From Methanomethylovorans hollandica DSM 15978 (GTDB lineage: Archaea; Halobacteriota; Methanosarcinia; Methanosarcinales; Methanosarcinaceae): a DNA stretch of 64,000 nt. Below are positions 28,394 through 43,702 of this stretch, piece after piece. How positions within the stretch are numbered: position 1 is the first letter of the stretch; each line of letters opens with the position of its first letter. The stretch covers positions 1,116,001 through 1,180,000 of the forward strand of contig NC_019977.1 in the NCBI RefSeq assembly GCF_000328665.1, read 5' to 3'. Made by a program: the position numbers and the translations under genes. A model generated the notes under the pieces. The model was not told the DNA's origin and made no database searches. It saw nothing but the letters and a program-made list of their open reading frames with translations.

Positions 28394-29732
28394 GTTTAAC
28401 CCTTTTTTTAGTGGATTATGCTTTCGAATGTACAAGAGCAAACTTGCTTTTTGCAAGAAAAAGTGTTTCAATCCTTGTTTTAGTGGATCATGCTCTGAAA
28501 GTTATCGGCAAAGTGACTGGTTTTATGCAAACTTGTAATGATTTTATTTTTGTTTTGGTGAAAGCAAGTTTCAATCCTTGTTTTAGTGGATCATGCTCTG
28601 AAAGCAGAAGACTCGGATTCGGATATCTCCAATAACCGTCTCGTAAGTTTCAATCCTTGTTTTAGTGGATCATGCTCTGAAAGTGCTAGGGCTGTAAAAT
28701 ATTATGGAGAAAAGGAAGATAGCGAAGTTTCAATCCTTGTTTTAGTGGATCATGCTCTGAAAGCCAGACTAGGGAATTTTTAAAAATCGGGCGGAAGGTT
28801 GTTTCAATCCTTGTTTTAGTGGATCATGCTCTGAAAGGAGACGGCTCATGCCCGTTAACCCCAAGTTGAGCAACAAAGGTTTCAATCCTTGTTTTAGTGG
28901 ATCATGCTCTGAAAGTGCATACGGCAGGGTAGGTATAGGCACAGTGGACAGGTTTCAATCCTTGTTTTAGTGGATCATGCTCTGAAAGTAGTTATCGCCG
29001 TGAAGATCCTAGGAGTTAGTTTTTGTTTCAATCCTTGTTTTAGTGGATCATGCTCTGAAAGGTGAAAATAAAAGATCGAAACCAAGGACGACGCAGGGTC
29101 AAGTTTCAATCCTTGTTTTAGTGGATCATGCTCTGAAAGTCATCTAGTGACAATAACAGTGTCACGAGGGTAAGTTTCAATCCTTGTTTTAGTGGATCAT
29201 GCTCTGAAAGAAGAAGTATATATGCTCATGATTGCTCAGATGAAAGAGAGTTTCAATCCTTGTTTTAGTGGATCATGCTCTGAAAGAGGATGTTTGGGTG
29301 GCTATAAAGACCGCCGTCGAAGCGTTTCAATCCTTGTTTTAGTGGATCATGCTCTGAAAGCCGGCAAACGCATGTATTATAATGCCTATGGATAAGTTTC
29401 AATCCTTGTTTTAGTGGATCATGCTCTGAAAGCCAATATGCCAGCATCGCCAAAACAACTTTACTTGTGTTTCAATCCTTGTTTTAGTGGATCATGCTCT
29501 GAAAGATTGATGGTGAGGGTAAGCGCAAAAATACGGTTGCAACTATAATGTTTCAATCCTTGTTTTAGTGGATCATGCTCTGAAAGTGCTTGCTCTGGTA
29601 ATACCTGTAGCCTCAGCGAGTGTTTCAATCCTTGTTTTAGTGGATCATGCTCTGAAAGTTGATATGTCTATTACCATTAAATGACAACGATACATGTTTC
29701 AATCCTTGTTTTAGTGGATCATGCTCTGAAAG
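28394..29732 (-). CRISPR. CRISPR array 1, 17 repeats plus a degenerate one
   Basis: The 37-nt repeat reads GTTTCAATCC...GCTCTGAAAG on the plus strand. Seventeen essentially identical copies start at 28465, 28568, 28647, 28727, 28801, 28879, 28952, 29025, 29103, 29174, 29250, 29324, 29396, 29469, 29550, 29622 and 29696. A decayed copy of the same 37-nt length is at 28394-28430. Read on the minus strand the repeat ends GGATTGAAAC, the usual 8-nt crRNA handle, and the decayed copy is then at the far end. So transcription runs leftward from a leader near 29733-30070. Spacers are mostly 34-45 nt; the one at 28502-28567 is 66 nt and seems to include an eroded repeat. Confidence 0.98.
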
Positions 29733-30203: not shown

Positions 30204-30857
30204 ATGGATCTGAAAATACTTTCCCTTACTCTTACCTCCACCCGCCCTATTCAGGAATCCGGTGCGCAGCTTAGGGGATTTTTTGCTACAAAGTTCAATG
30301 AATACAGCCTTCTGCACCAGCATGATGCTGACAAATTCATTTACCGCTATCCCATGGTTCAGTATAAAATGATACACAGAACGCCTACTGTACTCGGAAT
30401 CAACGAAGGTGCCGAGGTCTTGAAAGAAATATACGATGAATATGATAAGATTACACTTAATGGCAATGAGTACGAGATAGCAGAACGAGGGATCACTTAC
30501 AAAAAAGAGGATTTCGGAATCTCTGAGAAACTTATCAAGTATGATTTTTTAACACCCTGGTTCGCACTTAATCAGGAGAACTACAGGAAATATATTTCTT
30601 CGAATAACGAGCAGCAGGCAGCATTGCTCAACAGGAATCTTGTAGGTAACCTCCTTTCCATGTCGAAATCCCTGGATTATCAGGTACCTGATAAGATAAA
30701 GTGCCATATTGAAGTGAAAGAGCAAAGTTCAAGTTTGAAAGGGAATGATATCATTGCCTTCCGGGGTTTTTTTGTTACTAATTTCCAGATCCCTGACCTT
30801 CTTGGCTTAGGCAAGTCGGTATCACGTGGTTTTGGGACAGTGAAAAGATGCAACTAG
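30204..30857 (+). CDS. cas6: CRISPR endoribonuclease Cas6 (Cas6b type)
   Basis: Cleaves the array transcript within each repeat to leave the 8-nt handle ATTGAAAC. The 217-residue protein has the C-terminal glycine-rich RAMP loop GLGKSVSRGFGTVKR. His38 and His40 in SLLHQHDADKF are in the positions of the two active-site histidines described for methanogen Cas6b. It is the first clear gene of the cas6-cas1-cas2-cas4 operon and overlaps cas1 by 10 bp. Because the repeats of arrays 1 and 2 share their 3' halves, one Cas6 can plausibly process both. Confidence 0.93.
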   Translation: MDLKILSLTLTSTRPIQESGAQLRGFFATKFNEYSLLHQHDADKFIYRYPMVQYKMIHRTPTVLGINEGAEVLKEIYDEYDKITLNGNEYEIAERGITYKKEDFGISEKLIKYDFLTPWFALNQENYRKYISSNNEQQAALLNRNLVGNLLSMSKSLDYQVPDKIKCHIEVKEQSSSLKGNDIIAFRGFFVTNFQIPDLLGLGKSVSRGFGTVKRCN

Positions 30858-31816
30858 TTATCAACTCCTACGGCTCATTTTTGAAAAAGAACCATAACTG
30901 TTTTCTTGTCAGGAATGAGGATAAAGTCTTCGAAGTATCTGCGGACAAAGTAGAAAGCATTCTGATTGCCACATCCGCCACCATTACCACGGATGCTGTC
31001 AAATTCGCTGTGGAGAACAATATAGACATCGTTTTTCTCGACCATTCTGGAGACCCCTATGGGAGAATATGGCATACAAAGCTTGGAAGCACCACGCTTA
31101 TCCGCAGGCGCCAGCTTGAGGTGGCTGAGAAGAAAAAAGGCTTCAGGATGGTAAAAAAGTGGACCGAGGTCAAGCTTAACAATCAGATCACTTTCCTGAA
31201 AGATCTCAAGAAGAACCGGCCTGAACAAAAGGCCGAACTGGAAGAGTTTATTGCAAACATCGAAAAGCTGCAAGCTCAGCTTCTTGAACTCGACGGTACC
31301 CTGGAGGAGAAAAGAGGTTCTGTCATGGGAGTAGAGGGTATGGCTTCCCGACACTATTTCGATGCACTTGGTTACATAATGCCTGAGAAATGGAAGTTCA
31401 ACGGCAGGAGCAGGAATCCTGCGGTTGATGCTTTCAACTGTATGCTGAACTACGGGTATGGGATACTGTATTCCCTGGTCGAAAAGGCATGTATCATTTC
31501 CGGGCTTGACCCGTATGTGGGTTTTCTACATACTGACAATTACAACAAGAAGTCTCTGGTCTTTGATATAATTGAGATGTATCGTATCCACGCTGACAGG
31601 ACCGTGGTCAATCTGTTCTCCACAAAGCAGGTACATGACGAATTTTTTGACAGCATTCCTAATGGAATGAGCCTGAACAGCAATGGGAAAGCTGTGCTTA
31701 TCGGGGCATTCAATAAAGCCCTTGACCAAAGTGTGGAATATGATGGCAGAAACATAAAAATCAGGGATATAATACAGCACGATTGTCATAAAATTGCAAA
31801 CGGGCTTATAAAATAA
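30848..31816 (+). CDS. cas1: CRISPR integrase Cas1
   Basis: Metal-dependent integrase that, with Cas2, inserts spacers at the leader end. The 322-residue protein shows the metal ligands Glu163 (GVEGMASRHYF), His228 (VGFLHTDNYNKKSLVFD) and Asp240/Glu243. All are intact. This is the Cas1 type found in I-B systems. It overlaps cas6 and is 12 bp ahead of cas2. It is not fused to the reverse transcriptase encoded 2 kb downstream. Confidence 0.97.
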   Translation: MQLVINSYGSFLKKNHNCFLVRNEDKVFEVSADKVESILIATSATITTDAVKFAVENNIDIVFLDHSGDPYGRIWHTKLGSTTLIRRRQLEVAEKKKGFRMVKKWTEVKLNNQITFLKDLKKNRPEQKAELEEFIANIEKLQAQLLELDGTLEEKRGSVMGVEGMASRHYFDALGYIMPEKWKFNGRSRNPAVDAFNCMLNYGYGILYSLVEKACIISGLDPYVGFLHTDNYNKKSLVFDIIEMYRIHADRTVVNLFSTKQVHDEFFDSIPNGMSLNSNGKAVLIGAFNKALDQSVEYDGRNIKIRDIIQHDCHKIANGLIK

Positions 31817-32119
<303 letters not shown>

Positions 32120-32127
32120 GGTTGTGT

Positions 32128-32739
32128 ATGAAAGCAGCTTTTGACCACGGAGCTTTCGATCATGAAGTATTGATAACGGTGTCAGATGTAATGGAATACA
32201 GTTTCTGCCCCAGGTTCGTTTATTTTATGCATTGCCTTAATATATCCCAACATGCTGAGAACCGTTTCAAGGTCGTGAAAGGCAGGGAAGTACATGCAGA
32301 GCGTAAAAACACGAACCGCGACCATGTCAGAAAAAAGCTGCACTGCATCCTGAAAGATCCTGAGGTTCTGCTGGTTTCAAAAAAGCACCATATAAAAGGT
32401 ATCGTGGATGAAGTGCTCTTTCTGGAAGATGGCACTGCAGCACCTCTGGAATACAAATTTGCCCAATACAGGGACGAAATATTCTTAACTCACATTAATC
32501 AGCTTGCTTTGCAGGCTATCCTTATCGAGGAGAACTATGGGCGCAAGGTCAAAAAAGGCTATATCTGCTACATCCGCAGCAAAAATCTTGTAAAAGAAGT
32601 GGAGCTCCACAAAGCTGATCTCAGTAAAGCAAAAAAGTCCATAACTGAGATACTTGAGATAATTAAGAAGGGTACCTATCCTGCTGCAACACATGAAGAC
32701 AAGTGCACAGACTGCTGTTATCGCAACATCTGCGTATAG
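32128..32739 (+). CDS. cas4: CRISPR exonuclease Cas4
   Basis: A RecB-type nuclease with a 4Fe-4S cluster that trims prespacers and selects PAM orientation. Cluster cysteines are in FCPRFVYF near the N-terminus and CTDCCYRNIC at the C-terminus. Nuclease motifs are IKGIVDEVLF (Asp), PLEYKF (Glu-x-Lys) and QLALQAILIEE. The ATG at 32128 is preferred over an upstream TTG. It is the last gene of the adaptation operon and is followed by the leader of array 2. No cas3, cas5, cas7 or cas8 is adjacent. Confidence 0.95.
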   Translation: MKAAFDHGAFDHEVLITVSDVMEYSFCPRFVYFMHCLNISQHAENRFKVVKGREVHAERKNTNRDHVRKKLHCILKDPEVLLVSKKHHIKGIVDEVLFLEDGTAAPLEYKFAQYRDEIFLTHINQLALQAILIEENYGRKVKKGYICYIRSKNLVKEVELHKADLSKAKKSITEILEIIKKGTYPAATHEDKCTDCCYRNICV

Positions 32740-32851
32740 CACAATGTTCTTATATTTATAAGCACCTTGATAAATTAGTAGCAAGAATTCCAGTGCTGGA
32801 AAAGAAGGATTCCTAATCTTTCTTTAGTCCATCATAGGAAAAAATTGCCCT
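32740..32851 (+). promoter_or_regulatory. Leader of CRISPR array 2
   Basis: A 112-bp gap between cas4 and the first repeat of array 2. CTTATATTTATAAGC near 32750-32764 contains a TATA-like, palindromic core suited to rightward transcription. Its place at the intact end of the array supports leader status. Confidence 0.55.
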
Positions 32852-33832
32852 ATTCGAGAGCAAGATCCACTATAACAAGGATTGAAACTTTGAGCTCCTT
32901 TGCTATCCTGCTGTACGTTTCATCATTCGAGAGCAAGATCCACTATAACAAGGATTGAAACAGAAAAAAATTTTCCTGCCCCATAATATGTATCCCTATT
33001 CTCAAACTCAAGGATAGCAAATCCTTGGGAATGAAAAAATTCTCTATTTCCCATAATAGTGCTCTGGTCAAAACTACTGTCCCGACCAGAACTCCAAGTA
33101 GGCATGTCATTAATTGCAACAGGGACACTTCCACTCATCCATATTTTTCCATACGGATGAATGACTTCAGAGAGACTCATCTCTCTAACGGCCGTTTCCC
33201 AAGAAACGGTCGCTCCCCCTTTAATACGAAGAAGGGAAAACTCTGTCTTACTCCCATAATCGTTTCTATAGATTCGAGAGCAAGATCCACTATAACAAGG
33301 ATTGAAACATTGTGTCATTTCGACATGTATCATTTCTATGGGTTCTATTCGAGAGCAAGATCCACTATAACAAGGATTGAAACTCATAAAACTCCTGCGG
33401 CGTATCCAAATCCGACCCAAATTCGAGAGCAAGATCCACTATAACAAGGATTGAAACGTGATGCACTGGGGCTTTAAAAAATTCCGTAACCTATTCGAGA
33501 GCAAGATCCACTATAACAAGGATTGAAACGGTTCTTCTTGTAGCGCTATAATAAAATCTGTGAACATTCGAGAGCAAGATCCACTATAACAAGGATTGAA
33601 ACCATCAAACTCCTGGGAATTAATAACAACATTTTCATTCGAGAGCAAGATCCACTATAACAAGGATTGAAACAATTTCCAAGATGCATGGAAATTAAAT
33701 CATCTATTACACATTCGAGAGCAAGATCCACTATAACAAGGATTGAAACATCCTAAACCAGGAATAAAAAGTTCTTCAAGCGAATTACCTTCCAACTTTG
33801 TATTCGAGAGCAAGATCCACTATAACAAGGAT
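32852..33832 (+). CRISPR. CRISPR array 2, 10 repeats, last one truncated
   Basis: The 37-nt repeat reads ATTCGAGAGC...GGATTGAAAC on the plus strand. Copies start at 32852, 32925, 33272, 33347, 33421, 33493, 33566, 33637, 33713 and 33802; the last loses its end after GGATT. It differs from the array 1 repeat (in crRNA sense) at about five positions, all in the 5' two thirds. Transcription is rightward, away from the cas operon, opposite to array 1. Most spacers are 34-39 nt; the one before the last repeat is 52 nt, and a 310-nt segment separates repeats two and three. Confidence 0.97.
32962..33271 (-). other. 310-nt insert within CRISPR array 2, open reading
   Basis: This segment lies between two perfect repeats where a 35-nt spacer is expected. 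Its minus strand is open for the whole length (103 codons) and reads like a real protein interior, for example KGGATVSWETAVREMSLSEV and MSGSVPVAINDMPTWSSGRD. There is no start or stop of its own and no repeat-like sequence inside. It looks like a captured fragment of a foreign coding gene, source unknown. Loss of several repeat-spacer units would not normally leave a continuous frame. Confidence 0.6.
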
Positions 33833-33855
33833 TTATCTATTTAATCCCGATACTT

Positions 33856-35103
33856 TTGACGGAAGTATCATTAGCTGATCGATTTGAATCAGAATTGGGG
33901 GTTAGGCAAGTTATGGATAAGGTTGCACAGATACAGCTAGAGCTTTACCAAAAGGCGTTCAATGATCGCACAAAGCGGTTCAGGAAACTCAAAAAGTATC
34001 TTGTTATGGATGAGTTTCTCTATGCAGCATGGGAAAATGTCTGTAAGGGCACCAGATCTGCCGGTGTTGACTCTATTTCAGTGGCAGATATTAAAAAGAC
34101 GGGTGTTGATGAATTCCTGCAATCGTTGAAAGAAGATATAAAGGAAAACAGATACGAGCCAGACAGGATATTAAAACATGAGATATTAAAGCCGAATGGA
34201 AAAGTCAGAAAGTTAGGGATCCTCACTGTAAAGGACAGGGTTGTCCAGTATAACATGAAACTGGTACTGGAACCGATATTTGAAGCGGACTTTGACAGTA
34301 GTTCTTTTGGTTTTAGGGCTAACAGGTCTGCACAGCTTGCCAGCCTAGAGGTCTACAAATGGCTGGAAGCAGGTAATCATTATGTTTTCAAGAGCGACAT
34401 ATCCCAGTGTTTTGATAACATACCGCATGAACTTTTAATGAAACGCATTAAAACGCGTATCAAAGACAGGCAGGTCCGAAGGATCATACGTGCCTGGTTA
34501 AACGTGAATTCTGCATGCCTTCTCAATGAAGAAGCAACGTATGGAAAAGATAAAGGGATCCTACAGGGTGGAATAATTTCACCCCTTCTGCTAAATATAT
34601 ATCTTGACCAGTTCGATGATGAAAGGGAAAACATCGGTCTTAAAAGTATAAGATCCGATGGTCAGGGACATCTTGTGAGGTATGCTGATGATTTTGTAAT
34701 ACTTTCAAAGCAACCCATTGACACTAAACCCGTTGAAGGATCATTAAAAAAGATCGGCCTGGAACTTAACCCGGAAAAGACCTACCAGACCCATATAGAA
34801 GATGGCTTTGAGTTCCTGGGATTCTATTTCAAAGGAGCATTCGTCGAGGACAGATACAAAGGAAAGATAGACATATACCCAACCGAAGGTTCTATAGAAC
34901 GAGTGCTTGACTCAATCAGAACCATGACAGATCCAATGAACGGAAATACAAAACCTCCAGTTGAAACTATCCAGGAGATCAACAAGTCCATAGACAGCTG
35001 GCTCAATTATTACCACCACACAGATTGCAATTCCGGCCTGCAAAGAATGAACGATAGCTATAGTGACTATCTGTACAAATATGTTACTAACTATCAAAAT
35101 TAA
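33856..35103 (+). CDS. CRISPR-linked reverse transcriptase, stand-alone
   Basis: A 415-residue reverse transcriptase of the group II intron-like lineage. Seen are the N-terminal RT0 region (about 42-75), the first catalytic Asp in KSDISQCFDNIP (Asp181), QGGIISPLLLNIYL (237-250), the YADD box at 276-279 and the GFEFLGFYF motif (317-325). A short C-terminal thumb/maturase-like segment (IQEINKSIDSWLNYY) follows; there is no HNH endonuclease. The frame opens with TTG 33856, 24 bp after the truncated last repeat; the frame itself is blocked by a stop within that repeat. All catalytic residues are intact. Its place between a CRISPR array and a type III operon suggests spacer capture from RNA, as known for RT-Cas1 systems. 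Start codon uncertain. Confidence 0.9.
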   Translation: MTEVSLADRFESELGVRQVMDKVAQIQLELYQKAFNDRTKRFRKLKKYLVMDEFLYAAWENVCKGTRSAGVDSISVADIKKTGVDEFLQSLKEDIKENRYEPDRILKHEILKPNGKVRKLGILTVKDRVVQYNMKLVLEPIFEADFDSSSFGFRANRSAQLASLEVYKWLEAGNHYVFKSDISQCFDNIPHELLMKRIKTRIKDRQVRRIIRAWLNVNSACLLNEEATYGKDKGILQGGIISPLLLNIYLDQFDDERENIGLKSIRSDGQGHLVRYADDFVILSKQPIDTKPVEGSLKKIGLELNPEKTYQTHIEDGFEFLGFYFKGAFVEDRYKGKIDIYPTEGSIERVLDSIRTMTDPMNGNTKPPVETIQEINKSIDSWLNYYHHTDCNSGLQRMNDSYSDYLYKYVTNYQN

Positions 35104-35567: not shown

Positions 35568-36536
35568 ATGACTGCTAATACAAGAACATATCATTTTCAG
35601 GCATTAAATGATATTTGGACGGGGTCCGTTCAACTGGATATGGAAAATAATAAACTGAAGATTGTACCGAATCGTTTTGTACAAACAGGTTTACTGGGTT
35701 CAATTCGTTGGTGGTTTGAGGTGGTAGTTCGTGGACTGGGTGGCGAAGCATGTGATCCCAGTAATAGTGAATGTAAGGACTCAAAACATTGCGTTGTCTG
35801 TGAACTGTTCGGTTGTACCGGTTGGGCGCGAAAGTTCAGGTTTCAGGTTTTCGATGATAATAATAGTGTCAAAGTGTCTCAAATCAAGAAAAACATTAAA
35901 TTCGAACTCCAGTTCACATCCCTTCGACCCATTAGTTATGAAGAATGGGCATTATTAGACTTAACGCTTCATATTGTAGCAGAATTTGGTGCTGTTGGGG
36001 GGAAAACCGCATTTAAACCATCGACTGAAAATGGTCATGAAAATAAGCTCCATCATCGAGATTTTGGTAAGATCAAACTGGAAATAACAGAATCACAAAC
36101 TAAACCTGTAAGTAAAATTGAATTCGAGCACTATGTGCGTGATAGTCGCTGGCTTAAAATTGAAAACAATGACTTTACCTGGGCATCTTTCAATAACTTT
36201 TGGGTGGTAAACAATAGATACCTTGCCCGGCAAAATCAATTCAAAAGTACATTCAACAGTGTAATCGGTCGCCCACCACAAAAGAAAAAAGCATCACAAA
36301 ATGATAGTTTTCTAGCAGGTCGTAGACCAGATAGTTATAGAAAAATTGATGGCGAAAGCAAAAAAGTATTCAGTTTCAAAAACCCTCCCACTACTTTCGG
36401 TTTTATCGATGGGGAGAGCATAACATTTGATAAAATGAAATACTTGCTTAAAACAGCATGGTATGATATGAAAGATGATGAATTTAGAACAGGGGATAAA
36501 ATTTTAGATGACTTTACCAGAGGAGAACAATCATGA
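35568..36536 (+). CDS. cmr1: Type III-B RAMP protein Cmr1
   Basis: A 322-residue RAMP subunit of the Cmr complex. The N-terminal motif TGLLGSIRWWFEVVVRGLGG (about 41-60) and the cysteine-rich CDPSNSECKDSKHCVVCELF are the Cmr1 signature; Cmr1 caps the 3' end of the crRNA-bearing complex. It is the first gene of a six-gene operon and overlaps the next by 4 bp. Codon use is more AT-rich than that of the core genes. Confidence 0.88.
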   Translation: MTANTRTYHFQALNDIWTGSVQLDMENNKLKIVPNRFVQTGLLGSIRWWFEVVVRGLGGEACDPSNSECKDSKHCVVCELFGCTGWARKFRFQVFDDNNSVKVSQIKKNIKFELQFTSLRPISYEEWALLDLTLHIVAEFGAVGGKTAFKPSTENGHENKLHHRDFGKIKLEITESQTKPVSKIEFEHYVRDSRWLKIENNDFTWASFNNFWVVNNRYLARQNQFKSTFNSVIGRPPQKKKASQNDSFLAGRRPDSYRKIDGESKKVFSFKNPPTTFGFIDGESITFDKMKYLLKTAWYDMKDDEFRTGDKILDDFTRGEQS

Positions 36537-37417
36537 CATTCGACTACTATGCTTCCCTGGGAAATAGAAAGCAAATTCCAGAAGAAGAAACACTTTCATT
36601 CGAATTGGTTGACATTTGTTCTACACTGTATTTCAAAGGTAATAAGAAAGAAGCTCGTGAGTACTATATTAAACAGACTCTAAAGACAAAATTTAAAGTT
36701 CCAAAAGAATTGGATTTCTCCCCAATTTTATCCATCATGCCGGATTCAGCTTGGATTGGTTTTGAGGTGGAGTTTATCCTAAAAACTCCTTGGTACTCAA
36801 AAGACGATCGAAGTTTTCATGTTTTGGAGAACTCTCTTCGTAAGGACCATGTGTTCGGAATCCCATTCCATCCAGCATCTTCATGGAAAGGATTATTACG
36901 TTGGGCTTGCAGAATGGAATCTGGACTATTTGAGCATCTGGAAAAAAATGGAATGAAATTTGAAGGCTGGAAAGACGACAAGTGGATATTATATTTATTT
37001 GGGAATGAAAAAAATAACACTGATGAATTATATCAAGGTGTGATTAACTTTTATCCAACATTTTTTGATAGAATCAAATTTGAGGTCATAAATCCACACA
37101 GTCGCAAAACGCGTGCTGGTACTCAGCCGATTTATTATGAAGTTGTTCCCCCTAAAACAAAAGCAAAATTGCAACTGGTTTACGTGCCACATGCTGGATG
37201 TGAAATGCACACAGAGACGAACTGTTTAGAGACGATAAATAAATTACTGACCGCTACAGAGAAATTGCTAACCATATACGGTTTTTCTGCTAAACGCACA
37301 GCAGGGTGGGGAACTGCAGAGATTAGCAAGTGGAGAGCATTTAAGGCTGGTATGACTGTAGAGGAGGCTTCACTTGAAAAGTTCAAGGAAGCACTAAAAA
37401 TCCAACTCAAACTATAG
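36533..37417 (+). CDS. RAMP superfamily protein, Cmr6-like
   Basis: A 294-residue RAMP protein. FGIPFHPASSWKGLLRWACR (about 105-124) is the Cmr6-type entry motif, RAGTQPIYYEVVPP follows, and the glycine loop is AKRTAGWGTAEI. Cmr6 is a backbone/cap subunit contacting the crRNA. It overlaps cmr1 by 4 bp and lies 10 bp before the large-subunit gene. Assignment to Cmr6 rather than another RAMP is by motif and gene order. Confidence 0.75.
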   Translation: MTFDYYASLGNRKQIPEEETLSFELVDICSTLYFKGNKKEAREYYIKQTLKTKFKVPKELDFSPILSIMPDSAWIGFEVEFILKTPWYSKDDRSFHVLENSLRKDHVFGIPFHPASSWKGLLRWACRMESGLFEHLEKNGMKFEGWKDDKWILYLFGNEKNNTDELYQGVINFYPTFFDRIKFEVINPHSRKTRAGTQPIYYEVVPPKTKAKLQLVYVPHAGCEMHTETNCLETINKLLTATEKLLTIYGFSAKRTAGWGTAEISKWRAFKAGMTVEEASLEKFKEALKIQLKL

Positions 37418-37427
37418 AGGTACTTAT

Positions 37428-40391
37428 ATGGGCAATAAATCTTTCGAAAAAGTGCTTGACATTCATCGTTCTCTTTTACTATCAATGGAAGCTATAGGCT
37501 GGCTTCACATGGCTGGAAAGGCTCATCCTGACTTTCTTCGATGTCAGGCAGGAGTTGAAAACGGCTATAAATACAAACAATGGTATAAGCAGGCGAATTT
37601 AGAATGGAATGAGTTTTTTCAGTCGATTAAAACCTCATATGAGTCTGAAATACTTTTTCCAGAATCAATGGATAAGTTCATTACATCTCACACAAACAAG
37701 GGTCCTGGAATCCTTGGATTGCTTCAGGCAGCCCATGGTTTGGTTTCAGGTGTTGAGAAAAATCTCTACAAAAACACATCAGAATATCTAAAACAGTCGG
37801 AATCCCACATGTGGTTCTCCACTTCTTTTGGCTACCCTGTACGAAATCTCTTGAGTGATCCTCCAAGTGTATTAAAAGAAGAAGGATGGCCAAAGTTAAT
37901 CAAATCAGTAGATGAATGTTTATCTGAACTGAAAACTCTAAATGAACCATGTACAGAGGTAAAGAAATGGTGGGATTGGCGTGAAAAAGCCATTGGATAT
38001 GATGGATTTCTTCGCAAAGCCTTTACAGAAACCCTTGCTGAGACTCGTCTGCCTAATAATGATGTAACTCTCTGGGACCAGTCATACGTAACTGCTGCTT
38101 TGTTCAAAAGTGCACTTGCAGGTGCTTTATTGCAGAGGGAATTTCCTTGGAAAGATGACAGATTAAACGATAAAACCCACTGGAGTCTCCTTTCAGTGGG
38201 AATTGGTGCTGACAATTATGAGATGAGATCGGTTCGTATTGGTGATTCAATAGGGTCTAAGCATGAGATTAATACCTTTTTTGAAAAAGTACGCGAGTTC
38301 ATTGAAGTTAATCTCGCTGTAGGAGCAATGCTTTACAAAGATGATTCTGTAATAGTCTTTTCATTTCCTGAATTGAATGCTAATGTTTCTCATGATTTTA
38401 AGGATTCACAGAACTTTTATGCGTATATCAAAAAAACTATTGATGCTTATGCCCAGGAATCAAATTTCGAAACTCCACCCCACTGTATTATATCTCCTTC
38501 TTCGCGCTCGTTGCTGAATTTATCCCAGCAATTGAAAGATATTCGTAAAAAATTGGCAATTCCTGTTCATCGGAACTGGGAGATTGCTGATAATAATGTT
38601 TCAAAAGGCCACATCTGTCCGGTATGTCAGGTTCGTTTTAATGAAAATCCAAATGATAAACAAAAGCCCTGTACTGTCTGTAGTAAACGCCGTATCGGTA
38701 GGCTTGAAGCATGGCAAAGCGGTAAATTGGGATCAGATACTATCTGGTTGAGTGAAGTAGCTGATGAAAACGATCGGCTGGCAATTATCACAATGAGTTT
38801 TGATTTGGACAGTTGGCTGGATGGAAGTCATTTTGACTCACTTCGCAGTCAATCTGCTTTTGAATGGGTGTCAAAAAGTCAAAAGAAAGCAATTACAAAG
38901 GATATAAAGAGAGATAAGCCCTTACTGGATCTTCAAACATATATTAAAAAAGAACTGGAAAAAGCAGAAAAACAGAATTTTTGCATCAATGAAAACGACA
39001 CTATAATGAACACTCTAAATGGTGGTTTTAAATATAGTAAAGACTGGAAAACCTTTTTTGAAAAAATGGTAGAGGATAGAGCTAGTTCTCCAAAATGGGA
39101 AAAGCTAACCAATGAGGGACGAGCAAAGTGGTTAACTCATCAGCTTCTAAGAAAAAATGCTTCCCCGGGACGCATGTATCGTGTACAGCGCCAGACTGAA
39201 GAGTTCTTCAAAATTCTATTAGAAAAATTAAGGCAGGTTGTGGATTCCAATTCCAATCAATGGTGTACAAAAAGGCTGATTTTAAAAGTAAAGGACGGTC
39301 AGTGGGAAGATAAGCAGACCTATAGTGGTCACTATAACGATGCCCCCGTTAGTTTATTGTATCGGAAGCAATCCAATGATTTTATAACTATCTGCAACAT
39401 GGGCAGACTGCTTGAGAATGTGCACCCGAAAGAGATCCTAATAAACAAAAGGATCGAATTAAAAAATGACGATTCCAAGGAAATTATTTCAATTGAAATT
39501 AAATCTGTTAAGGATAAAGCAGAAAAATATCGTCCCATAGTACCACTTGAGATTGATCCCAGACGATTCCGGGTCGTTGTTCCTCTGAACAAAGCTAATG
39601 AATGTATAAAAGTCGCTATTGAAATGTGGAAGGAACAGTATTCCAGAGTATGGGACCGCATGCCCCTGAGAATTGGAACAGTTGCTTTCTCTCGAATGAT
39701 GCCATATCAAGCGGTAATAGAAACTATCAGAAATCTTGAAAACGAATTGGAAAAGAGAAAACAAGAGGCATGGTATGTCATGAATAAGGATCTTTGCCAA
39801 GGAGTTCTTTGTCTCTCCATAAAGTCTCCTGAAGGAGAAGAGTCCTTACGAACCACTCCAGTAAAATTGCCTGATGGCCAATTAGATGTTTTCTACACAT
39901 ATTGTGAAGTTGAAGAAACGAAAGTAAGATATCCCCGGGACTTCCAAGGTCCTGACAGAAAGATATATCGTCATATCTGCGATTTACGCATCGGAGATGG
40001 AATTTATATTAAACCTGCTGTCATTGGCACTGTTTTTATGGAAAGCACTGCCAGTCGCTTTGAGAATATTTTTGTTTACAATTTAGATGAATGGCAGAGA
40101 ATGACTGACCTTTGGCATATACTTGAGAGGCTAGCTCCAAGTCAGACTGCACTCCGTGGTGTATGGGATATTATCTGCGAACACAAGGAACGTTGGCAAG
40201 GGCAAAATCATGATTGGAAAGATGGTGAAGAGGAAACATGGTTGGCATTTGTTCGATCTATAATATATGATCGCTTTGATGCTAACTCGGCATCTTTGGA
40301 ATATTTGGTTGATACAGTAAATTTGGGACTTTTTGATAGATGTATGGATTGGCATATTCGTGTACTTAAAAAGAAGATAACCGAGGAATAA
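37428..40391 (+). CDS. csx11: Cas10-type large subunit, Csx11-like, altered motifs
   Basis: A 987-residue large subunit of the type III effector. A zinc ribbon is formed by Cys397, Cys400, Cys415 and Cys418. A palm-like core is around 220-330. The region RMPLRIGTVAFSRMMPYQAV (about 760) fits the Csx11 branch of Cas10. Two usual active sites are changed: the N-terminal HD position reads WLHMAGKAH (His27-Met28), and the cyclase GGDD position appears as YKDD (303-306). If these are the equivalents, the protein may lack DNase activity and perhaps cyclic oligoadenylate synthesis. It lies between cmr6-like and cmr4 with short spacings of 10 and 2 bp. Large-subunit identity is strong; the Csx11 name is from memory of the family. 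Confidence 0.82.
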   Translation: MGNKSFEKVLDIHRSLLLSMEAIGWLHMAGKAHPDFLRCQAGVENGYKYKQWYKQANLEWNEFFQSIKTSYESEILFPESMDKFITSHTNKGPGILGLLQAAHGLVSGVEKNLYKNTSEYLKQSESHMWFSTSFGYPVRNLLSDPPSVLKEEGWPKLIKSVDECLSELKTLNEPCTEVKKWWDWREKAIGYDGFLRKAFTETLAETRLPNNDVTLWDQSYVTAALFKSALAGALLQREFPWKDDRLNDKTHWSLLSVGIGADNYEMRSVRIGDSIGSKHEINTFFEKVREFIEVNLAVGAMLYKDDSVIVFSFPELNANVSHDFKDSQNFYAYIKKTIDAYAQESNFETPPHCIISPSSRSLLNLSQQLKDIRKKLAIPVHRNWEIADNNVSKGHICPVCQVRFNENPNDKQKPCTVCSKRRIGRLEAWQSGKLGSDTIWLSEVADENDRLAIITMSFDLDSWLDGSHFDSLRSQSAFEWVSKSQKKAITKDIKRDKPLLDLQTYIKKELEKAEKQNFCINENDTIMNTLNGGFKYSKDWKTFFEKMVEDRASSPKWEKLTNEGRAKWLTHQLLRKNASPGRMYRVQRQTEEFFKILLEKLRQVVDSNSNQWCTKRLILKVKDGQWEDKQTYSGHYNDAPVSLLYRKQSNDFITICNMGRLLENVHPKEILINKRIELKNDDSKEIISIEIKSVKDKAEKYRPIVPLEIDPRRFRVVVPLNKANECIKVAIEMWKEQYSRVWDRMPLRIGTVAFSRMMPYQAVIETIRNLENELEKRKQEAWYVMNKDLCQGVLCLSIKSPEGEESLRTTPVKLPDGQLDVFYTYCEVEETKVRYPRDFQGPDRKIYRHICDLRIGDGIYIKPAVIGTVFMESTASRFENIFVYNLDEWQRMTDLWHILERLAPSQTALRGVWDIICEHKERWQGQNHDWKDGEEETWLAFVRSIIYDRFDANSASLEYLVDTVNLGLFDRCMDWHIRVLKKKITEE

Positions 40392-40393
40392 TT

Positions 40394-41389
40394 ATGACTG
40401 AATCTCAAATGAGTTATCAAGCTTACGAACACATCGGTTTGGCATTAGACCCTATCCATGTAGGAACCGGTGGAAATCGATTGGGACGTGTAGATAATAC
40501 GATTATTCGCGACCCAGTTACAAAAATACCTAAGATTCCGGGGTCAAGTTTAGCCGGAGTTCTGAGGACATATGTAGCTATGTCTGAAAATAAATATCCA
40601 GATTGCGCAGGACAGGGACAGCCTCGTAAAGATGGCACTGGAGGACATTGTGGTCAGAATAATTGTCCTGTATGCACAACATTTGGATTTGCAAAGGGCA
40701 ATAATGGTGGCTTTGCAGGTTTGGCAAGTTTTAACGATATGCATGTCCTTCTTTTCCCAGTAGCAACTTGTGAAGGTCCATTCTGGGTCACTGCGCCTAT
40801 AGCATTAAGGCAAATAGAAGAATTAAAAAATATCAGCGATCTCCCTGATAGCAATTCGGTATATTGCATTGACAGTGAAAATAATAAAAATTCAATAAAC
40901 TTTGGATGGCTGTTGCTGCCGAAAAAATCAGGCTGGAATAGCATGGATTGTGTAAAAAACAATTTTAAAAAAATACTACCTGAAAATATGATATTAGGCA
41001 ATATTGCGGTTGTGTCAGACAAGCTTTTTTCTCATATCGTTAATAGTAATCTGGAAGTTAGAACTTCCGTGTCAATTAATCCTGCCACAGGAGCTGCAGA
41101 AGATGGGGCACTTTTTACTTATGAAGCATTACCTAGGGGTACAATCCTCCACTGGATTGTAATCTGTAGGAATCCAAACCACTTCAAAATTGATAACCAC
41201 ATCATCGCAAGTGCCCAAGAACCAAGAGGTGTGCACGAATATCTTAAGAAAACTTATCCTTATCTGGAATACCTTGGTATTGGAGGTATGACAAATCGAG
41301 GTATGGGAAGACTTCGTGTTTTAAATGACAACATCTCAGGAAATATAGGAACAAAAGTTGAAAATGATAACTCCCAAATGGAGAGATGA
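40394..41389 (+). CDS. cmr4: Type III-B backbone subunit Cmr4
   Basis: A 331-residue Cas7-type RAMP that polymerises along the crRNA and cuts target RNA every 6 nt. The motif IHVGTGGNRLGRVDNTIIRD contains Asp34 in the place of the catalytic aspartate of Cmr4. KIPGSSLAGVLRTY follows and a Cys/His-rich insert (about 71-94) resembles the Cmr4 zinc site. The C-terminal loop is GIGGMTNRGMGRLRV. It overlaps cmr5 by 4 bp. Because Asp34 is kept, RNA cleavage should be intact. Confidence 0.9.
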   Translation: MTESQMSYQAYEHIGLALDPIHVGTGGNRLGRVDNTIIRDPVTKIPKIPGSSLAGVLRTYVAMSENKYPDCAGQGQPRKDGTGGHCGQNNCPVCTTFGFAKGNNGGFAGLASFNDMHVLLFPVATCEGPFWVTAPIALRQIEELKNISDLPDSNSVYCIDSENNKNSINFGWLLLPKKSGWNSMDCVKNNFKKILPENMILGNIAVVSDKLFSHIVNSNLEVRTSVSINPATGAAEDGALFTYEALPRGTILHWIVICRNPNHFKIDNHIIASAQEPRGVHEYLKKTYPYLEYLGIGGMTNRGMGRLRVLNDNISGNIGTKVENDNSQMER

Positions 41390-41760
41390 TCATGGAAAAC
41401 CTAGATATGAAGTGTGCCCAGCTGGGTGCAAGAATTGGAAGCAAAGTTGAAGAGAAGATCCTTACAGATGCTTTGGGTGTATTGCAAGAACAGGGAGTTT
41501 ACGCATTTTTTCTTTATCTTGAAGCAAACAAAAAACATGATGGGAAATTTATCAGCAACCAGTGTTTAAAATTCATGGGGAGTACACCAGAACATAATTC
41601 ATTGATTACAAGTAACGATGAAGAGAATAAGCCATTTCCACGTATTTTAGCACTCTCTGAAGATTTGGACAACTTGCTTTTTGCTCGTGATCTTCTGCTT
41701 CAGGCACTTGTATACGGCCGTTATCATGCGAAAATAAATTCTAAGAAGGAACCACAATGA
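41386..41760 (+). CDS. cmr5: Type III-B small subunit Cmr5
   Basis: A 124-residue all-helical small subunit that stacks along the target-binding groove. Seen are KCAQLGARIGSKVEEKILTD and the long C-terminal helices, with FARDLLLQALVYGRYHAK matching the Cmr5 end. The start may be Met1 (overlapping cmr4) or Met3. It overlaps the next gene by 4 bp. Confidence 0.85.
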   Translation: MIMENLDMKCAQLGARIGSKVEEKILTDALGVLQEQGVYAFFLYLEANKKHDGKFISNQCLKFMGSTPEHNSLITSNDEENKPFPRILALSEDLDNLLFARDLLLQALVYGRYHAKINSKKEPQ

Positions 41761-42647
41761 ACTGGGAACTTTATCGCTGGGTGTGGGTTCTTCAATCTCC
41801 GCTTTCAGTTGGTACACTACCATCTGGTTCATTGAACCGATGCCATCTTTATATCCCCGCAAGAGCAATATGGGGAGCAATTACAGCTGAGGTCGCGAGA
41901 CGTTCAGATGGTCATTTTCCTGACTATGCTGTGATTGGAAATGGAATTCAGGAAGAAATCCGCTTTACATATCTATTTCCTGCAGTCAAGATAAATCAAG
42001 AGTGGAAAGCTTGGTTGCCGTGTTATATGGAAGACAAAGGACTGTGTTGGCAGTTAGAAGATGCTAATGATGATTTTAATAATGTCATTTCAAACCAGAT
42101 TTTTCGGTCAAGATTACTTTATACACGCCCAGGAACATCTATTAATCCCGAAAGCGATTCCGCAGAAGAAGGATCTCTTCATGAAACCGAATGTATCCAG
42201 ATATATTGGAGTCCCAGTGAGGAAAAAAATAATAAACAATATCAGCAAATCGGAATGATTGGATATGTTCTTGTTAAATCGAATTCATTATATATCGACT
42301 CCATAAAAGAAATTGAGACGCTACTCATAGGCGGAGATACAAGATATGGATTCGGTAAGTTGAGACAAGTAGATTTTTCAAACCAATCATACTTATTTAA
42401 TAATACTGTCAACCTTTCAAACAGTGAACCAATAATCACTGGCCGTAGTGTATTAGGACACACCGCCACAGTAAAAAACATGAGCGGTGACATAGAAGCC
42501 CTTGCAGGTTGGGATTATTTATCAAACGGTAGGTTGAAAGGATTTGAAAAAACCTACTGGACTCCAGGATCTTTTAGTCCTGATGGTCAAAGCGACTGGA
42601 AAATAGGTAGACATGGGCATTGGGAAAATGTTAACAAAAACTCATAA
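41757..42647 (+). CDS. RAMP protein, candidate Cmr3 (Cas5-like)
   Basis: A 296-residue RAMP with PARAIWGAITAEVARRS near the N-terminus and the glycine loop LIGGDTRYGFGKLRQV (about 197-212). It is the last gene of the Cmr operon. Cmr3 is the only standard subunit not otherwise accounted for, and it would bind the crRNA handle; the short length and weak similarity leave Csx10-like as an alternative. Convergent with the next gene, 35 bp away. Confidence 0.65.
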   Translation: MNWELYRWVWVLQSPLSVGTLPSGSLNRCHLYIPARAIWGAITAEVARRSDGHFPDYAVIGNGIQEEIRFTYLFPAVKINQEWKAWLPCYMEDKGLCWQLEDANDDFNNVISNQIFRSRLLYTRPGTSINPESDSAEEGSLHETECIQIYWSPSEEKNNKQYQQIGMIGYVLVKSNSLYIDSIKEIETLLIGGDTRYGFGKLRQVDFSNQSYLFNNTVNLSNSEPIITGRSVLGHTATVKNMSGDIEALAGWDYLSNGRLKGFEKTYWTPGSFSPDGQSDWKIGRHGHWENVNKNS

Positions 42648-42682: not shown

Positions 42683-43702
42683 TTAACTGTCATTTAATTT
42701 TTCAAGACGAACAATATAACCAGCATTTTTCAGTACCTTAGCAATAGTCAAGGCTTCCTTTCCAATTTCATTAATTGTTACGTACAGAATCCCTTGCAAA
42801 TCTCAAGGCATAGTTACATTTCCACACATCAAAGCACAAACCTTATTGCGACCCAACGCTCCAATTAACAATCCATGTTCAAAAATAACATTTTGTCTTG
42901 CGCGAGGTTCTTCTTCCCCTCCAGTTATTTTTCCGACATCTTCTGGAGTATAGATTACAAAACAAAAATCAACAGTCATAGATATTGTTTCTAAATACTC
43001 AATAATTGTCAATCCTTTTGCACTTTCGGGTTCCAACACCTCAGGTTCAAAATCCATTTTCTTTAATATTTGTACCAATTTATCTCTTATATGGTGGTTC
43101 CTTCCATGAACAACAAAAACACGTCTACCATAATTGACGGCTTTTAAAGCAGCAATGATCCTAAAAACTTTATCAAAAAACTCATCTGCAGAAATATTGA
43201 CCTCTTTTACAAATTCGGCGTCATTCGGATTTAAGTAATAATATTCAGATGGTCTCTGATACCAAGAGTGTTTACTAGTTTTAGTAAGAGGGGCAACAAA
43301 TACTTTTTTTCTATCCAAAAAAGCTCTACGAATGCACTCAGCAGTCCCTTTACCACCACCAATGGCTATCAACAGATCTGCTTTTTGAACGAGTAATGCT
43401 CTTTCTTCTAACCACCAACGACATTTGGGAAGTTTTATGACTTTTCCGATTTCTGGAATCTGGGAAATTTTTTCGGGTAATAAAAAAGTAATATAATTTT
43501 TTGGATTTTTACCCGTTTCTTTGCATAATCGTGCGATTTCGTTAGCGATCAAAAAGTCATATTCCCCAAGAGTAGTCAATATTACATGGTGGTCCTCAGA
43601 TAGTAAATGCCTTGCAAAAGAAAGACAAAAATTATCCACCAGTTCTTTTTCATTTGGTAAATCTCGATTTTTACTCCAACCACCTTGAAAAAGTATATTC
43701 AT
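42683..43702 (-). pseudogene. SLOG + TIR-like effector broken by one UGA
   Basis: Residues 1-185 form a Rossmann-like SLOG domain with IAIGGGKGTAEC (113-123). Residues 194-299 are a TIR-like nucleotide-binding domain of the PF10137/CAP12 kind (RRVFVVHGRNHHIRDKLVQI, GLTIIEYLE, PRARQNVIFEHGLLIGALGR). The frame stops at TGA 42803-42805, yet the next 39 codons in the same frame (DLQGILYVTINEIGKEALTI and on to the TAA at 42683-42685) complete the domain as expected. The family has Ser at the stop position, so a TCA to TGA change explains it. TIR and SLOG domains use or bind NAD-derived nucleotides in anti-phage systems such as Thoeris and CBASS. The 299-residue product lacks the last strand and helix. 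Convergent with the Cmr operon. Confidence 0.8.

Follow-up and report, generated by a model that had tools for sequence, protein, structure and literature searches.

A 310-nt spacer resembling a structured, protein-coding RNA in a reverse transcriptase-linked CRISPR array of Methanomethylovorans hollandica

Results

Organization of the CRISPR locus

The window analyzed here is a 64,000-nt stretch of the M. hollandica DSM 15978 genome, which comprises 2.71 Mb in two contigs and is near-complete. The genes cas6 (30204–30857), cas1 (30848–31816, the sole intact copy in the genome), cas2 (31829–32119), and cas4 (32116–32739), all on the plus strand, form an operon spanning 30204–32739. CRISPR array 2 (32852–33833, plus strand) is located downstream of this operon and is followed by a gene for a group II intron-like reverse transcriptase (RT; 33856–35103, plus strand), so that it sits between the two. 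After the RT gene come the genes of a type III-C effector, cmr1, cmr6, csx11/cas10c, cmr4, cmr5, and cmr3 (35568–42647, plus strand). The genome search revealed no cas3 above the cut-off. The locus thus has the composition of an RT-associated type III CRISPR system, with a group II-like RT beside an array, cas1/cas2, and a type III effector, and Toro et al. 2017 (PMC5541045) place the M. hollandica RT in the RT-CRISPR-1 clade. Array 1 (28465–29732, minus strand), with 17 repeats related in sequence to those of array 2, lies in the opposite orientation. Directly downstream of the type III-C genes, on the opposite strand, 42803–43702 encodes a protein with a TIR domain, assigned to the CAP12/Pycsar effector type and to PADLOC PDC-S35, which may be an associated effector.

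Array 2 consists of nine perfect copies of the 37-nt repeat ATTCGAGAGCAAGATCCACTATAACAAGGATTGAAAC and a truncated last copy at 33802–33833. Its presumed leader (32740–32851, plus strand) is assigned by position, since it adjoins cas4 opposite the end with the degenerate repeat. The second spacer counted from this end is 310 nt long (32962–33271) and is flanked by perfect repeats at 32925–32961 and 33272–33308; the remaining spacers measure 34–39 nt, except for the last one of 52 nt. It occurs once in the genome, and its minus strand, the presumed sense RNA, contains 103 open codons. Long terminal spacers are present in both M. hollandica arrays: 66 nt at the far end of array 1 (28502–28567) and 52 nt in array 2 (33750–33801).

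The preliminary description of this DNA had placed 310 nt between two perfect 37-nt repeats, and its coordinates proved exact. It had also seen no trace of a lost repeat inside the insert and considered ordinary repeat loss an unsuitable explanation; both views held. Aligned without gaps, the insert agrees with the repeat at 19 of 37 positions at best, which is the chance level, shuffled sequences usually giving 17–20, and the length does not correspond to a whole number of repeat-spacer units ((310 − 36)/73 = 3.75). Erosion of repeats and joining of spacers are therefore excluded as far as the sequence can tell.

Coding character of the insert

Two frames are open over all 103 codons, minus frame 2 and plus frame 1, the latter being its codon-by-codon complement. 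The full-length open frame reported in the preliminary description is thus real, but it is not confined to one strand, and only the minus frame is gene-like. Minus frame 2 had a codon score of 0.041 per codon, close to the 0.136 ± 0.074 of host genes, and plus frame 1 scored worse. The best of six frames in dinucleotide shuffles scored −0.23 ± 0.07, with one in 10,000 reaching the value of the insert (p ~1e-4). When the base-paired structure was kept during shuffling, 0 of 10,000 sequences reached it, hence palindromes alone do not create the frame. A fully open frame of any kind appeared in 285 of 20,000 shuffles, so openness by itself beats chance only at approximately 1%, and it is the codon score that carries the case for coding. 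Minus frame 2 has a purine at 66% of first codon positions and T at 47% of third positions. With the coding frame on the minus strand, a crRNA from this spacer is antisense to the coding RNA. The sense strand ends in ...GGAAAATTTTTTTCT with the frame still open, and a non-coded 3′ A tail of the kind found on RNA-derived spacers of the Marinomonas RT-Cas1 is not evident there. Structure prediction for the 103 amino acids, run without homologues, gave a pLDDT of 39 and was unusable.

Predicted RNA structure

The minus strand of the insert has a minimum free energy of −110.5 kcal/mol and a z-score of −6.83 (−5.9 with a second shuffle set); the plus strand also folds strongly (z −6.5). In the predicted fold, hairpins of 7 to 14 bp follow one another along the minus strand, at 33009–33027 (7 bp, 5-nt loop), 33061–33092 (14 bp, 4-nt loop), 33131–33164 (14 bp, 6-nt loop), 33167–33188 (9 bp, 4-nt loop), and 33189–33212 (7 + 2 bp, 4-nt loop). 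A 10-bp helix pairing 33235–33244 with 32967–32976 closes a domain of the same strand (32967–33244) and brings the ends of the insert close together.

The insert was compared with real DNA via regression on dinucleotides, which avoids shuffle noise, using three control sets that partly overlap. Windows as extreme as the insert sense strand were found in none of 1,486 strand-windows of M. hollandica (among them the provirus, contig C1, and a tRNA region), none of 1,428 windows drawn from the host, Methanosarcinaceae, and psiM2, and none of 1,228 windows that included T4, T7, and lambda. The same comparison classed 29% of 92 Leviviricetes windows as equally extreme. These 92 windows, taken from ten genomes, had a mean z of −5.0 with 29% below −6, the host windows averaged approximately −0.4 with a lowest value of −3.5, and windows of dsDNA and ssDNA phages seldom reached low values. 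With a small shuffle set, one 310-nt window near z −6 was noted in each of phi6 M (dsRNA) and lambda. The G-U asymmetry between the strands was rejected as strand proof because the coding strand folds better in DNA phages too.

The most structured host windows in this comparison map to contig C1 (L173:13330-15500), with a regression z of about −4; they are not coding-like at a glance and perhaps represent a mobile element's non-coding RNA.

Searches for relatives of the insert

The preliminary description had proposed searching virus, plasmid, and methanogen genomes with the 310 nt and their translation; only chance matches were obtained. This applied to Pfam, PHROGs, phages and plasmids (each as DNA and protein), IMG/VR, and GTDB contigs, as well as to 186 genomes of the order and 393 of the phylum, the exact-peptide-word searches detecting close relatives only. 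A match in one genome (G269) was discarded, as it contained two stops and its E value of 4e-4 referred to a single genome among 393. No Rfam family was assigned (best E 0.29, all hits far below the gathering scores). Similarity was seen neither to the maturation, coat, and replicase proteins of Leviviricetes nor to 90 RNA-phage contigs. No DNA copy of the source was found in the phage, plasmid, and genome collections, nor was an RNA source. Comparison of the relatives' spacers with the insert or with RNA phages gave short chance matches only.

Other spacers and RT-linked arrays

Spacer 1 of array 2 (32889–32924, plus strand) has an antisense match, 97% over 34 nt, to a gene of a DNA provirus on the same chromosome (G000:C2:1196958-1196994) that carries RecT and terminase genes; hence the array 2 system does sample DNA-virus genes. 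This leader-most spacer, which has a mismatch to the provirus gene, is a self-targeting type III spacer. The other 24 spacers of the two M. hollandica arrays are not structured as RNA.

The RT adjoins an array in relatives as well. In the RT-adjacent arrays of ten relatives the crRNA is antisense to coding in 192 of 255 spacers, as against 160 of 251 for other arrays in the same loci, and the count for M. hollandica is 20 of 25. Since the coding-strand classifier is 76% accurate on host genes, 192/255 lies near its ceiling and nearly all RT-array spacers may be antisense. Such a bias is compatible with the sampling of RNA and with selection for RNA targeting alike, so it cannot separate the two. 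Over-long RNA-like spacers were absent from the RT arrays of the relatives.

The spacers of one RT-linked array (L043:14268-17383, relative G024) are unusually hairpin-prone, with a mean z of −0.97 and 30% of them at p ≤ 0.05, compared with 7% of host 36-mers and 15% of RNA-phage 36-mers. Several cover an apparent ribosome-binding site and start codon. This is possibly a second RT array with structured-RNA spacers.

Discussion

On its minus strand the insert joins a coding-like frame to an extraordinarily strong RNA fold. The likeness of this fold to that of an RNA-virus genome, the strongest feature of the piece, had escaped the preliminary description. Coding and structure that extend along a whole piece are what RNA-virus genomes show, an argument from likeness and not from homology. 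The resemblance is closest to Leviviricetes genomes, also coding RNAs with dense local hairpins, within whose range the z-score of the insert falls although protein or nucleotide similarity to them was not detectable. We put at roughly even odds (about 0.5) the reading that the insert is a cDNA of excessive length, copied from a structured RNA that encodes protein and most resembles the genome of an RNA virus, and captured by the RT and Cas1-Cas2. More tentatively, at odds somewhat short of even, we propose that the source was an RNA virus infecting a methanogenic archaeon, of which the RT-CRISPR system kept this unusually long cDNA as a record in the genome. A protein homologue was found nowhere in the collections searched, so the RNA origin is argued from likelihood and the viral nature is a further step.

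The events could have run as follows. The source, which most resembles a positive-strand RNA virus genome, would have been one contiguous 310-nt piece of structured coding RNA, and the RT of the locus would have reverse-transcribed it. Cas1-Cas2 would then have integrated the cDNA untrimmed as a single over-long spacer, with duplication of the repeat as in normal acquisition; speculatively, the 10-bp closing helix may have kept both ends together. The preliminary description had suggested capture of a very long DNA piece, or insertion by another route possibly involving the nearby RT; entry as a single long contiguous piece, possibly via the RT, is the best-supported route, the role of the RT being inferred. 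Transcription and Cas6 cleavage would yield a long crRNA intermediate, antisense to the source RNA given the orientation of the insert. Because type III crRNAs undergo 3′-end trimming, the first 30–40 nt (from 32962) could serve the type III-C effector as a normal guide, and there is probably no need for the earlier concern that the crRNA would fall outside the usual size.

The closest known systems share parts of this scheme. In Marinomonas, RT-Cas1 copies and integrates RNA protospacers (PMC11014452), and the type III-B system of M. mediterranea likewise combines an RT, Cas1-Cas2, and a type III effector in a path from RNA through cDNA to spacer. There the RT is fused to Cas1, whereas in M. 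hollandica it is unfused; the spacers peak at 34–35 nt against the 310 nt of the insert. No direct precedent for an over-long RT-Cas1 product was found. The RT-CRISPR-1 systems of Methanosarcinaceae have an RT of the same clade, separate from Cas1, together with type III, but the available portion of their description (PMC5541045) mentions no over-long RNA-like spacer such as the one in M. hollandica array 2. Spacers that record RNA replicons, Obelisks among them, have been reported (PMC13096302), and some of these spacers belong to type III systems. As records of RNA they parallel the reading proposed here, yet they are bacterial and normal-sized, unlike the insert. Obelisks themselves are circular RNAs of approximately 1 kb with a characteristic protein, Oblin-1, which is not seen in the insert.

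The main rival explanation, which we regard as unlikely, is that Cas1-Cas2 took up, whole and untrimmed, a 310-bp gene fragment from a DNA virus or plasmid not yet sequenced, the fold of the fragment being incidental. The match of spacer 1 to a DNA provirus and the unstructured normal spacers speak for such a source, and no homologue contradicts it, but the composition-corrected controls of 1,486, 1,428, and 1,228 partly overlapping windows hold none that folds as well, and similar DNA is missing from the phage, plasmid, and genome collections. Insertion of a mobile or structured element (a MITE, an insertion-sequence end, or an intron-derived RNA) in or beside an ordinary spacer appears less probable still. 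It has a precedent in a relative (G035), in which a 212-bp MITE present in about 40 copies has entered a CRISPR array where a repeat meets a spacer and, together with an intact 36-nt spacer, makes up a 248-nt gap (L052:15731-15978). That gap is likewise giant and lies between perfect repeats, and the M. hollandica insert is rich in palindromes. The MITE, however, is multi-copy and non-coding, with stops in nearly every frame, and so displays the marks of ordinary insertion, none of which the M. hollandica insert has: it is single-copy in its genome with no dispersed copies, absent from the 186 genomes of the order, outside any Rfam family, and open and coding-like throughout.

Homologous recombination at the repeats, with another array such as a virus-borne mini-array as partner, or a deletion between two arrays might also have left foreign DNA behind. 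We judge this quite improbable: the repeats are identical and array 1, 3 kb away, has a related one, but array 2 degenerates at its far end only and not at the insert, and in the source a piece of a gene would have to lie between repeats, an arrangement that was not found. Least credible of all is the fusion of normal spacers through repeat loss, or an assembly error. Repeats often decay at the far end of arrays (PMC4869251); here, no repeat remnant rises above chance, the length is no multiple of the unit, one frame is open end to end, and the genome is near-complete in two contigs.

Reverse transcription and capture of a structured coding RNA, if correct, would bear on RNA viruses, none of which has been firmly tied to an archaeon (PMC10492444). 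A normal 36-nt spacer is too short for an unknown RNA virus to be recognized, whereas 310 nt display both a frame and a fold, and the insert can be used as a probe in a methanogen that is in culture. Such a capture would open RNA viruses of Archaea to study at the sequence level, would represent a new type of acquisition product, and would mean that RT-linked adaptation can keep RNA copies much longer than the Cas1-Cas2 ruler usually permits.
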